Assembly: GCF_000218685.1 (NCBI RefSeq)
Contig: NW_006763296.1
Coordinates: 1,508,907 to 1,572,906 of the forward strand
DNA from: Serpula lacrymans var. lacrymans S7.9
Lineage: Eukaryota; Basidiomycota; Agaricomycetes; Boletales; Serpulaceae
Length of the DNA stretch: 64,000 nt
Direction of reading: 5' to 3'
Shown: positions 48,316 through 53,680 of the stretch, in pieces
Position numbering within the stretch: position 1 is the stretch's first letter
Layout: every line of letters starts with the position of its first letter
Program-made: the position numbers and the translations under genes
The notes under the pieces: generated by a model
The model's database searches: none
What the model saw: only the letters and a program-made list of their open reading frames with translations
What the model was told of the DNA's origin: nothing

Positions 48316-49193
48316 ATGTGTTAGTGCTAGCAGCCAGACGCGAAGGACCCCCCATTGTGGTCGTATGATCCCTACTTGTTTATCAAATGCTGAAAATGAC
48401 CTGTTAAATGTGATTTTTATAGCTTTTGTATATATATGCCGACGCGAAATGTGATTAGCCTGATGATTTGGTTCTAGGATCTGGTTCATGGCTGCGCTTG
48501 AATGTTTTCTTGCAAATTGTAGATGGTATATCCATCCCGCTAGCGGTGAATCAGTGAAAACTCGAGCGGTGTGTCAATCAGACGCTCAGTGCCAGTGGTC
48601 AAACATCAATATTGGTCCTTTGAATTGAGAGACATGTGACGCACTAATATGGGTTCCTTCAAGCTTCAGGCCTCAGGCCAACACAACCCAACCAAAGATT
48701 GGCCGACCGCCGATTCAGTGACTTTCCTTGGAATGGCGGAGTTGCCCCTTGCTGGGTGAATTGTGTTTGGTACCATATTCGCCATATCTTTAAACCATGA
48801 ACTTGAACGACCATCGAGGTCTAATTTCAACGATTCCAAAATACAAAGCAACAGTCGACATAGATACAACCTGGTATGATGAATACACTGCAAAAGAAGA
48901 AAATCAAAACACGCCATAACCAGCCTTACTCCCATCCTCATGCCAGTGAACACCCCTTCATCTACCCCTCACTGTCACCCTTCCCATCTGCCCATTTCTC
49001 CTTTCACCCTCACCTAACGTCTACCAGCCACAACTTATCCTATGGATACCACGAAAGACCGCAGGTCGCCTCCAACACGAAGCCACCAGATGATGGAACC
49101 TAAAAGTCTGAAATTACACACGCAGGCACCATAAGCCACATGCCACCCACAATGAGAAGGGTACCTTAAAGCAGCCTTCTAACATGTCCCTGA
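48316..49193. other. Intergenic between convergent P450 and NACHT genes
   Basis: No recognisable coding sequence. It should hold both 3' untranslated regions. The frame at 48,876-49,103 (plus) has no features. Confidence 0.4.
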
Positions 49194-52100
49194 CTATGAA
49201 CTTGAATTTTTGCAGCAATTCTCCTGTGGTAAAAAGGTGGTATACGAGGATTATAGCTCAGGCTGATGATGGAAACTAACCTCAAAAGGCTACGCGAGGC
49301 TTCCTTCTGACGCACTTGCTGTAGTAGTACTGGTATTAGGGATGTTGTTAAAAATAAAAGTTTAGTTCACATACTCGCTATTGATGGAGCATATCGCATG
49401 TATAACATTGAACTAATGTCCACGAAGTCAACATGAAACGAACAACACACCCACTAGAAGTGAGTTAAACGATCAGCAATTCAAATGTAGATCTCAACAG
49501 TGCGTACATACTTTCTGCAAGGAATATCAGCGATAATGAATACATTAGCGCTACATGCACAAAACGTGTAAAGCAAGCTTCTGCGTACAATCTAAGTGCG
49601 CAAAACGAATACGTTGGTAAAATTTGGCAAAAAGTACAGGGAAATGGCAAAACATACAATCTGCAGTGCGAGGAAGTTAGTAAAAATGGTTGTGCACAAT
49701 GAAAGAAATGTCCCTAACTAGCTTTAGGTTCAGATTCACATCTTTTCAGTATTGACTGTACAACACGGATGCTGTGTGCAAGAGGTGAAGTGGCTGAACG
49801 ACACAAATCCGTAAAGAAGAAAACTATGCACTTACATTAGAAGATGACACACCTCGTGGATTTTCTGATAACATAAACACAACATTGGTGATTAGTATTC
49901 ATGATAATGAGCATGACACGAATACCAACTTACATCCTGGAGATTGAGCAAAAAATGTGATCTGCGGATGAAAAGAAAATATGCCAATAAAGGAGCAAAA
50001 GCAGCGTACGTCCTGAACTCATCAAAAGAGCACAAGAATAAATAAAAGATATCCAAAAAAACCCCTGAAATGACGTACTTTCTGAGAACGTCAAGGTGGG
50101 CATGATAGTCAGCGCCAAATCTGGCTCAAAAGTTCGATAGCGACGTACCCACTGAAAACGTCAAGGAGGGCATAATACTTAGTCTCACATGTGGTCAAAC
50201 AAAGTCGAGAGCAACGTACCCACTGACAACGTCAAGGAGGGCATGACAGTGACAGTCAGCGCCAAGTCTGGTTAAAAACGATCGAGAGCAACGTACAATC
50301 TGAGAACGTCAAGGAGAGCTTGACAGTCAGCACCAAATCTGGCTAAAAATATCGGGGAGCGACGTACACCCTGAGAATGTCAAGGAGGGCCTCACATTTA
50401 GCACCAGATCTGGCTACAAAGATCAATAGCGACGTACAAGCTAAGTATATCAAGGATGGTATGGCGGTCAGTGCCAAATCTAGCTAATAAAGATCGAGAG
50501 CGACATACACCCTGAGTACGTCAAGAAGGACTTGACAATCAATGCCAAATCTAGCTAAAAAAAGAACAAGAGCGACGTACATACTAAGAGCACCAAGGAG
50601 GGCCTGACAGTCAGCGACAAATATAAACAAGGCCATGAAATGACGTACATGCTGAGAATGTCAAGGAGGGCATGGCAGTCAGCACCAAGTCTGGCTCAAA
50701 AGTTCGATAGCGACGTACCCACTGAGAACGTCAAGGAGGGCGCGATATTCAGCCTTACATCTGTCTAAAAAAGGTCAAGAGCGACGTACAAGCTGACAAC
50801 GTCAAGGAGGGCATGACACTCAGTCATACATCGGGTAAGAAAAGATCGAGAGCGACGTACAAGCTGGGAATGTCAAGGAGAGCTTGACAGTCAGCGCCAC
50901 GTCTGGCTAAAAAGACAGAGGGCGACATACAGGCTGATAAGGCCATCATGAAAATCACGGAGCGGTTCCGGGCGGTTTTGGGGGGAACATAGGAACGTGT
51001 ATTTATTGAAGAGTATCACATTGTCAGTAGCAACCTTTACACGAAACATGACTACGTACGTCCTAAAGACACATATAGAGGGCGGCAGTGGTGAGCCGTC
51101 TGGGGCATTTCCAGTGGAATAGAGCACATACAATATGGTGAAACTGTCAGAACACAAGACAATGGTCAGACAATCCAGCAAGAGATGCAGCACAGATAAG
51201 CATTTACCTTCTAAATTATCACAAGTATAAAGCATCTCAGTGGAAACTCTTTACAGGATGAAGTCTCAATTAACGCACATACTGAAAGATTGACCATGAA
51301 AAAGCAGATCAGCAGGTAGAGTGAACGAATGAGTGGGCAACACACAAACTAGCCCAGTAAACTCATCAGTCTTCCGTCTTTCAGATATTCGTCATGCAAA
51401 TGCTACGTTACTTACGTCCTGTGTGTACAGCCAGCTCCTTTAGATATGGTATGTGTGTAAATTGAAACGACGTACTTTCTGTGTAAAGTAGAAGTACATT
51501 AGCTCAGTTTCAACGCCCTCATTTTGACACGACTTACCACCTGCCGATCCAATGCACCAATAAATAAAACAGGTCATCAATTATCTATCGTGAGATATGC
51601 CACGCACAGCCTAGTCATATGCCATAGTTACAAAGAGTGAGATATAACCATCGTCTAGGGTAATTTACAAAGAAATATACACACTTTCTGAAACGTTATG
51701 CGTTGGGCCCCGAAAAGGTTCAAAATGCCTCGTCATGAATCATCAATAATTTCGTACCTCTATATGCTCTATCATGCTATTTAGGCTATTTAATGCCGAA
51801 CGTAACTTTTTGGGGCATTGCGACCAATCCTACATCAAATTGAGTCGTGTTAGATATATTTTCGCATCATGTGTCTAGCTTACCTCTGATGATTTTGCCA
51901 AACCTGATAACATTTCTGGTGCTCCGCTTCGGATGGCAGTATGCACCCAAGGGTCAAGAACACTACCAGTGAAGTCCGTCAGAGAATTGCTCAATGAAAT
52001 AAATAAAGGTGACTCCGAATGATAATTCTTCCAACCATGAACAGCCTGTTGAAGATGATCAAGACAATACTTGAATGCATACCCCACGGGCCCATCTATA

Positions 52101-53680
52101 AACCAAAAGAGGCCCCCATTTCTTTGCATAATATTCATACAACGTATTGCAATGGAAGCGTGACAATCAGGGGGATTATTGAAATAGCCACCCGAGCGTG
52201 ACCGTGTCGTTAGGAAATCTCGGAGTGACGTATGAACTAAGTGCACCGGACTGTTGTTGGATTCGGGGATAATGAGAATAGATTGAATCCCGAAGAATGC
52301 CCTGAGAAGGTCTCGCAGTGGGACATCAATCAAGAGAGCGAGGTCTCGGATGGACAATGGGCTTGTAAGATGTAACAAGATCCCCATTACTTGTTTGAGG
52401 TTAACCATGCTTCCAGATACAACTTCGGCAGATGAAGCCTTGGAAAACACCTGCATATACAGAGGATCCAGGCCATGTGCCTTTAACGCATCTATGAGCT
52501 GTCGGTGCGCCATTCCCCTTGCTTCTTGGACAAAATTGACGAACGTCGATGCATAGATATAGGAACCAGCGGCTTTATCAACCAAGGTGTCAAGGACATC
52601 CCATGAAGGCCAAGGCTCTGGAACACCATCCGCAACCATGAGTAAACGATTGGCGGCATATATATTCGCAAATTCGGACTGAAAGAACATGCGAATGTCC
52701 TTGCTAGCATTATACTGCTGCAATTTCAACTGAAGGGAGACCTCCTTGGCATCTATTGTTTCAAGTCTTAGCCGAAGATGTTCTTCGACTCTGCTGGTGA
52801 TAAAGAGACGAAACGGGACCCGGCCTCCCTTGGACCTGCACGCATCAATTACAGCGTCGATGAACTCGTCCATCGATTCTCCGTCCCCGACTTCACATTC
52901 ATCGAGGGCATCAATAACTATCACCATACGTTTTTGTACGGCATCATTCTGTGTGGACGTTGATTGTACATGGGAGAGCATGGGATCCATGATCAATTTG
53001 TCAAATTGATACCCGAGTCGAATACCCCGCTGTGAAAGGAAGGGTTCTTTTGTGAGCGCATCCTTGATCAACGGTTCTATGTTTTCAATTGTAGTTGAGA
53101 GTTGAAAAGCGAGCGTAGAGATTAGATGGGAAATCTTATCTCGGTTTCCCATTCCCCGAAAGAAAAAAAAGCTGGCAGCAAGCCTCCCTTCATCAGCACA
53201 CCATTCTGCAACGGTCTGCGCTATGGTCGACTTCCCAAACCCAGCCGGGCCATTAAGCCAGCAAATCGGGAGAGTACCGTCTACCCAGGTTTTGATCTCG
53301 TGCAGGACCTTCTCCCGGGTGCCCTCCAAGCATCGAGCGAGTTTCCCTGAGCGATCCTTGTACGAAGCTTGAACTGGGTGTAGCAGGTCGTATAAGCCTT
53401 TCAAAGCTAAATACGAATGACTAAGCTCATAGCGAAAGATAGATAAACACTACGCACGGTCGGCAGTAACGTTGTTGATGTTGAATCTCAGTCCCGAGGT
53501 TCCAGAAACATCAACGAATGTGCCATGTGGGATGTGGGTGTTGTTAGCCCCATTGAACATTCCCGTGCCAGTAATGGGCGCTAGAGAGGCTTGTCCGTTG
53601 AGATGGTTAGAATCTGTTATCGAAAGATGTAACTGTGGCTTGTGTTGATATTACTTACCAGGTCGATCGTGAGTGTGCAT
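49194..53680 (-). CDS. NACHT-domain NTPase (NLR-like) with a microexon tail
   Basis: STAND-type NTPase of the fungal NLR-like group, whose members are thought to sense non-self or pathogens. Exons: 53,680-53,659; 53,613-53,458; 53,406-51,884; 51,829-51,758; then a chain of microexons to a stop at 49,194-49,196. Motifs: the FNGANNTH..GTFVDVSG segment, Walker A GPAGFGKST, Walker B MVIVIDALDEC (near 52,920), and downstream winged-helix-like TSPLSIRDLALLIDVPL. The last ordinary exon encodes DWSQCPKKLRSALNSLNS.... About 640 residues in total. No WD40, ankyrin or TPR repeats are seen. The start may instead be 53,812 (MSRRIKQE), in the same frame. The first exon overlaps, antisense, a duplicated piece of the helicase 5' region. 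Confidence 0.8.
49281..51687 (-). repeat. Array of about 33 in-phase microexons separated by short introns
   Basis: On the minus strand each unit reads ...AG|exon|GTRNGT. Three-nt exons (plus coordinates of their first base): 51685, 51608, 51538, 51476, 51416, 51346, 51279, 51208, 51060, 50931, 50861, 50790, 50719, 50649, 50581, 50509, 50438, 50368, 50297, 50219, 50149, 50079, 50010, 49934, 49658, 49589, 49512, 49451, 49375, 49316. Larger ones: 51,132-51,143 and 49,853-49,864 (12 nt each), 49,281-49,289 (9 nt). All are multiples of three and phase 0. Units from 50,931 down to 50,079 are homologous, with introns of 65-75 nt sharing GTACGTCGCT...GCTGACTGTCA...CCTTGACGTTCTCAG; the others are unrelated. 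Between 49,852 and 49,661 I could not place a clean microexon. Splicing is predicted, not observed. Confidence 0.75.

Follow-up and report, generated by a model that had tools for sequence, protein, structure and literature searches.

Gene organization of the locus

The stretch analysed here (the window) comprises 64,000 nucleotides (nt) of the genome of Serpula lacrymans var. lacrymans S7.9, the dry-rot fungus and a basidiomycete of the order Boletales, and carries a NACHT (NLR-like) gene on its minus strand. The large exon of this gene encodes a NACHT/STAND NTPase domain (Pfam NPHP3_N, 8.6e-26, 91.5 bits, cut-off 24.8; Pfam NACHT, 1.1e-7, 32.3 bits, cut-off 26.7), and its translation is identical to part of the deposited protein SERLA73DRAFT_181948. 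Downstream of it lies a long chain of predicted exons, most of them exactly 3 nt in length. We consider it highly probable, from the sequence comparisons reported below, that this chain forms the C-terminal tail of a small Serpula lacrymans NACHT family, with about 31 codon-sized exons at this locus, and that the tail has been diversified codon by codon. Along the gene, the 72-nt exon is followed by K A V K D F Y K, FHHI, D, a tandem block, D D, KIHE, I I K W R, a 38-nt exon and the terminal exon:

53458..53560, minus strand: first coding exon of the deposited model SERLA73DRAFT_181948 (MFNGANN...), placed by comparing the deposited protein (P0001) with the window sequence
51884..53406, minus strand: large exon with the NACHT/NPHP3_N ATPase (Pfam), ending at 51,884 before GTAAGC
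51758..51829, minus strand: 72-nt exon DWSQCPKKLRSALNSLNSMIEHIE, the final ordinary exon ahead of the chain; a 72-nt exon lies at the same place in paralogs C11, C5 and C6:2526k
51060..51687, minus strand: predicted microexons of the upstream framework, reading K A V K D F Y K, then FHHI (12 nt) and D; the F and D slots are codon-conserved in paralogs
50079..50933, minus strand: variable tandem block with a unit length of about 71 bp (Tandem Repeats Finder, TRF), its 13 predicted one-codon exons spelling P L L W H Y G L G I W W K; the triplets are hypervariable
49375..50012, minus strand: predicted downstream framework microexons D D, 12-nt KIHE and I I K W R, from the splice-chain decoder and paralog codons; the slot at 49,852-49,661 is ambiguous
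49281..49318, minus strand: predicted 38-nt exon QVRQKEASRSLL(R), opened by CAA at 49,318, from comparison with C11, C5, C6:2526k and C6:2780k
49166..49223, minus strand: predicted terminal exon RIAAKIQVHSQGHVRRLL, with stop TAA at 49,168-49,166, from paralog comparison

The true start of the gene may lie further upstream than the first exon of the deposited model, whose protein reads into the chain's first intron for a few residues and then stops. Three deposited Serpula models (P0001, P0002 and P0003) end a few residues past a donor, ahead of the chain. When the conceptually spliced protein was compared with Pfam, none of the 14 families listed at E up to 1 was an ankyrin (ANK), WD40 or TPR repeat; comparison with the PDB returned nothing useful (one match, at E 0.08).

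A chain of predicted in-phase one-codon exons

Between 51,687 and 49,318, the minus strand holds 27 matches to the strict pattern YAG-NNN-GTRNGT. In 2000 dinucleotide-preserving shuffles of minus-strand 51,757-49,100, the same pattern occurred 0.19 times on average and never more than three times, and the real sequence contains no site at all with exon spacings k of 0-2 or 4-11 instead of 3. TRF reports a 71-bp tandem repeat at 50,082-50,931 (12 copies), and the rule extends beyond it: the upstream flank holds eight sites in 823 bases (shuffle mean 0.04) and the downstream flank seven in 986 bases (shuffle mean 0.08), neither number being reached in any of the 2000 shuffles. The shuffle counts, together with the sites in both flanks, thus indicate that the chain is neither a product of chance nor of duplication only. 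Elsewhere in the window, four strict sites fall on the plus strand and four on the minus strand. These numbers bear out the preliminary description of this DNA, which had proposed an in-phase AG|NNN|GT chain persisting on both sides of the tandem units and had suggested counting AG-NNN-GTRNGT sites in shuffled sequence.

In stwintrons, one intron is nested in another and interrupts a splice site of the latter, so that no nucleotides separate the two. Such an arrangement does not fit the window array, in which no site occurs at k = 0, 1 or 2 and 27 sites keep exactly 3 nt.

A decoder that is blind to reading frame (dynamic programming of splice chains, with exon lengths of 1-60) recovered 32 internal exons in the window, namely 29 of 3 nt, two of 12 nt and one of 16 nt. 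The first eight residues were read as K, A, V, K, D, F, Y and K, the same order as that given originally. The 33 modelled introns of the tail measure 56-192 nt, and with a median of 68 nt each should be recognisable as an intron. As adjacent introns could hardly be spliced simultaneously across three nucleotides, stepwise splicing would be expected. It is the exon lengths that are multiples of three, and not the spacings as had been stated. The two 12-nt exons announced earlier were recovered; the additional 9-nt exon was not confirmed, the slot at 49,852-49,661, where the decoder places 16 nt, being ambiguous.

Comparison with paralogs, all of it within the Serpula lacrymans assembly (42.6 Mb, 29 contigs), alters the 3' end of the model. 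In C11, C5, C6:2526k and C6:2780k, a codon CAA or CGA that is not followed by GT stands at the start of a longer exon, whose donor is GTTAGT. The CAA at 49,318, one of the 27 strict sites and previously listed as a microexon, is therefore probably the first codon of this longer exon. Reading on through the 38-nt exon moves the stop from 49,196-49,194, as first proposed, to 49,168-49,166, and the joined tail of the window is open until that point.

Rival donors and acceptors compete in the slot that follows the second 12-nt exon (49,852-49,661 in the window, with homologs in C11, C5, C6:2526k and C6:2780k). The donor varies between GTGTGT, GCGTGT and ATGTGT, and a second donor (GTAAGT, GCAAGT or GTGAGT) follows 17-23 nt further on. 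This slot could be an alternative splice point. The exons decoded there (16 nt in the window, 10 nt in C11 and 10 nt in C5) were excluded from the joined tails. The tails of C11 and C5 align with that of the window, with DF, F[HY].[IL], D.K and KWRQ.R in common, and tails joined from C7, C11 and C5 also align with one another as proteins (DF, FHxI-like, D.K, KWRQ.R). A profile of three conceptual tails searched against 120 homologues placed P0001, P0005 and P0006 above threshold, all from Serpula; the match to P0001 corresponds to the ordinary 72-nt exon.

Paralogous chains in the genome

A protein search of the genome returned 46 NACHT matches, pieces of one gene being counted separately. Chains of 13-36 strict sites were present in 10 of the 22 stretches examined, window included, with 206 strict sites over these ten loci versus three on the opposite strands. 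In nine of the ten, again including the window, a NACHT exon of the same family lies directly upstream on the same strand. The tenth chain, C6:2526k, is found about 14 kb downstream of the NACHT exon C6:2541k, also on the same strand. In the sequence covered between them (all but 6.5 kb), one frame encodes chromo and Tf2-1-like SH3 domains together with an integrase core (rve) that scores below the Pfam cut-off, and a second encodes a reverse transcriptase domain (RVT_2). C6:2526k and C6:2541k are thus probably a single gene interrupted by inserted retroelements.

Directly downstream of three close NACHT copies (C6:2541k, C5:2188k and C3:2597k), no chain is present. C3:2597k keeps a CTG microexon resembling slot 2 in its relatives, and part of it can be aligned with the C3:3016k terminal region for 97 columns; no array lies between these two elements, which looks like an array deletion. 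Nine more distant NACHT loci hold 0-2 strict sites, about 1.5 kb of downstream sequence being covered for eight of them.

The decoder, run on all ten loci except C6:2780k, yielded 236 internal exons, of which 218 measure 3 nt, nine 12 nt and one 18 nt, while eight are not multiples of three; the frame would thus be maintained by 228 of the 236. The eight loci other than the window have 16-44 decoded internal exons each. C2:3079k was decoded and left unaligned as a tail.

Distribution across the genome bears on one explanation offered at the outset, that introner-like elements were inserted repeatedly beside one another. Introner elements are near-identical introns spread across many unrelated genes, and the units described here are indeed intron-sized, with consensus splice signals. 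However, a 435-base piece of the block gave 16 matches, on C3, C5, C6, C7 and C11, which among the best candidates all fall in array loci of this family, and a pattern of two array units matched the genome 50 times, 49 of them within the ten array loci (the reversed pattern gave 22). Near-identical units are moreover found at whole-unit distances (72, 144, 216, 284 bp and more), as tandem duplication predicts. This origin is accordingly very hard to credit, and the stepwise intron removal that had been suggested beside it fares no better with units repeated at such distances.

Conservation of framework codons

Stop codons are absent from the 206 strict triplets of the ten loci and from the 218 decoded triplets. 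With a local stop-trinucleotide frequency of 0.0466, this corresponds to P 5.4e-5 and 3e-5, respectively, on the assumption of independence, which tandem copies violate; the 206 also include some probable non-microexons, such as CAA at 49,318. The branch-site motif CTRAY occurs upstream of 114 of the 206 acceptors (shuffle mean 29.2) and, outside the tandem blocks, of 40 of 109 (shuffle mean 16.8, maximum 29).

On either side of the block, several slots retain their codon in loci whose introns have diverged. The W slot is TGG in all eight loci in which it was placed. The I slot is ATT or ATC in eight of eight, with mismatches of 0, 0 and 0.57 at positions 1, 2 and 3 versus 0.40 in the ungapped flank. 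The K/E slot is AAA or GAA in nine of nine loci, the F slot TTT in eight of nine (TTG in the other), the R slot CGA, CGC or CGG in eight of nine (CTG in the other) and the D slot GAC or GAT in six of eight. Ungapped flanking intron columns of the framework slots differ by 40-58 percent. Slots were placed by hand from order and neighbouring sequence, and loci lacking a clear counterpart were omitted (C2 and C6:248k for I; C2 and C6:2526k for W; C2 for K and R; C3:3016k for slots 1, 4, 5 and 6; C3:2187k for slot 4; C6:2526k for slot 5), so that like triplets may have been favoured in distant copies. For the W and R slots, homology follows from the alignment of the entire W-to-R intron in eight loci.

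The exceptional codons TTG and CTG both belong to C3:2763k, whose NACHT exon holds an internal stop. In C6:2526k, probably separated from its NACHT exon, the W slot is CGG and has lost its donor, one intron is down to 27 nt and no terminal acceptor is left, which agrees, in small numbers, with decay after breakage of the gene. C6:2780k retains the framework codons, though the pieces of its NACHT exon hold stops. Because framework codons are kept while the introns diverge, we read the triplets as translated one-codon exons, each of which would be spliced in. The original proposal that each unit contributes one amino acid to the tail of a NACHT gene is supported in this way by framework codons as well as by site counts.

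These data also speak to the possibility that the array downstream of the NACHT genes is a minisatellite, either decaying or non-coding, in which introns are kept and triplets drift because they are skipped or untranslated. The block is a tandem repeat, the NACHT exon is broken in some loci and, in the independent pairs described below, all three triplet positions exceed the intron rate, as such a minisatellite would have it. Against it stand the lack of stops in 206 triplets (5e-5), the frame kept in 228 of 236 decoded exons, an I slot that changes only synonymously and a W slot that is TGG in every placed locus; damaged splice signals and a CGG at the W slot occur in C6:2526k, the locus probably severed from its NACHT exon. 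We thus regard a non-coding array as improbable.

The variable tandem block

One triplet and one intron make up each unit of about 71 bp, and a block contains 4-30 units per locus, with 110 triplets in nine loci. C2:3079k was excluded because few of its units are alike; in C6:2780k, two units with weaker donors (GTACAT and GTACGC) and a unit CCT ahead of the block were left out. Over the eight loci with at least five units, mean pairwise mismatch was 0.70, 0.68 and 0.45 at triplet positions 1, 2 and 3, compared with mostly 0.2-0.5 for intron columns outside the splice sites, and in six of the eight, positions 1 and 2 rank within the top three of 49 columns for variability.

The same tendency is seen between closely related units. 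Of 17 pairs whose flanks diverge by 4.6 percent, 88 percent encode different amino acids, although these pairs are not independent. Among 12 disjoint pairs at most 12 percent apart, positions 1+2 differ at 13 of 24 sites and position 3 at 3 of 12, versus 47 of 684 in the introns (Fisher, 3.9e-9 for positions 1+2 and 0.048 for position 3). As choosing pairs by all flank columns selects for low intron divergence, pairs were chosen again by distal intron columns. The ten resulting pairs differ at 15 of 20 sites for positions 1+2, 5 of 10 for position 3 and 24 of 250 in the intron (1.6e-10 for positions 1+2), and from these counts the triplet as a whole outpaces its own intron. Position 3 shows a trend to be slower than positions 1+2.

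In seven of the ten distal-chosen pairs, nearly identical introns flank codons that differ at two or all three bases. Units with near-identical introns and codons differing at all three bases (GGA/CCT, TTT/CAA, GGA/TTT) were noted in the blocks of C5:2342k and C6:2526k. Two units of the C6:2526k block carry tandem acceptors six bases apart (CAG TTTCAG), alternative use of which would lengthen the exon in frame from one codon to three.

How far alternative splicing could by itself account for these tails is a separate question. They might belong to a kind already described in truffles, inherited or evolved anew, in which NACHT genes obtain varied tails through alternatively spliced 3-bp microexons and exon skipping provides the main diversity. 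All 31 modelled microexons are multiples of three, so that any skip keeps the frame; skipping alone leaves unexplained, however, why units with almost identical introns carry different codons. We hold this account to be tenable, if somewhat short of probable. A further proposal is that block codons are replaced by a process targeted to the triplet, or by equally strong selection, with the intron as scaffold and skipping as a second layer; this appears unlikely to us.

Proposed diversification of the receptor tail

Under the explanation that we favour, a codon-wise diversified C-terminal tail, each codon of block and framework would be spliced in and translated. The block would gain and lose units by recombination between near-identical introns, adding or removing whole codons with the frame intact; the whole-unit distances between similar units fit such a process. 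Diversifying selection on single codons would then generate many different receptor tails, perhaps aided by conversion that keeps the introns alike, and the resulting NACHT receptors would share a constant framework and differ in a variable stretch. Such selection is the simplest reading, since triplets under free drift would not be expected to change faster than introns that can themselves diverge from locus to locus. With exon lengths all divisible by three, exon skipping may be an extra source of tails. The conserved repeat scaffold would in effect be the intron rather than protein sequence. Diversification of the receptor tail is the likely purpose and, by analogy with fungal NLRs, the tails could take part in non-self recognition.

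Several observations weigh against this explanation. All splice junctions are predictions from sequence. A search of deposited proteins did not recover the tail, the sole return among 294 candidates being a truncated Serpula model, and it reaches the cut-off of no Pfam family. Several paralogs carry stops in the NACHT exon, no downstream framework was found by the decoder at C2:3079k, and five or six of the eight exons that are not multiples of three share one ambiguous homologous slot, that after the second 12-nt exon. Framework slots 1-3 show no codon conservation relative to their flanks. Within the block, C6:2526k (ranks 6, 21 and 26) and C3:2763k (five units, ranks 5, 5 and 5) depart from the ranking seen elsewhere, and the lack of stops only weakly exceeds chance (0 of 110, 3.3 expected, P 0.036). 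The distal-chosen pairs put position 3 well above the intron too (5 of 10, P 0.002), and the contrast of positions 1+2 with position 3 in independent pairs is non-significant in seven of eight settings (P 0.019-0.34). With a weak position contrast and a raised position 3, the block taken alone argues for hypervariable triplets and not clearly for selection at the codon level.

Relation to known systems

Chains of short exons with lengths of 3n that are open to skipping are familiar from the micro-exon genes (MEGs) of Schistosoma. Their exons are longer and they encode secreted proteins, whereas the Serpula exons measure 3 nt and belong to a NACHT gene. Fungal NLRs of the HET-E type have highly similar C-terminal repeats. 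As in Serpula, these tandem repeats are alike save for a few fast-changing residues and are shuffled between copies; the scaffold there is protein, while in Serpula it would be intron, with one coding codon per unit. Shuffling of such repeats in fungal NLRs is described in PMC10197012.

The closest parallel is the NACHT-ANK (nank) family of Tuber melanosporum, for which alternative splicing of codon-sized (3-bp) microexons is reported in papers crediting Iotti et al. 2012 (PMC4986451, PMC3689799, PMC10197012). Both are NACHT families of filamentous fungi with tens of codon-sized exons, those of Serpula being modelled from sequence. Tuber is an ascomycete and its genes are said to bear ankyrin repeats, whereas Serpula shows no ankyrin match at E up to 1. 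As far as the truffle genes are portrayed in the citing papers, the Serpula chain is of the same kind, in another phylum, and the earlier remark that no gene of this form had been described was too strong. A conserved framework, tandem units scaffolded by introns and hypervariable codons are features of the Serpula genes; the truffle genes enter this comparison by citation. Short exons are also known in a basidiomycete from the P450 genes of Phanerochaete chrysosporium, with microexons of 2-10 codons, the shortest of 6 bp, spread over the genes (PMC1184071). Unlike those of Serpula, they are dispersed, and the available portion of that paper describes no arrays. We found no report of basidiomycete arrays of one-codon exons, including in PMC11121469, PMC4014442 and PMC3990503, nor of hypervariable codons between conserved introns, in a literature covered in part, which makes this weak evidence of novelty. 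The basidiomycete case, the conserved framework and the hypervariable block appear to be new.

If the favoured explanation is true, this fungus evolves recognition surfaces residue by residue, with introns as the recombining repeat and three-letter exons as the variable part. Chains of about 30 exons of three nucleotides would be spliceable in order, providing a natural test of how the spliceosome handles exons too short for exon definition. Gene models of fungal NLRs of this type would then be cut short, as tails built of one-codon exons escape both standard annotation and short-read aligners.
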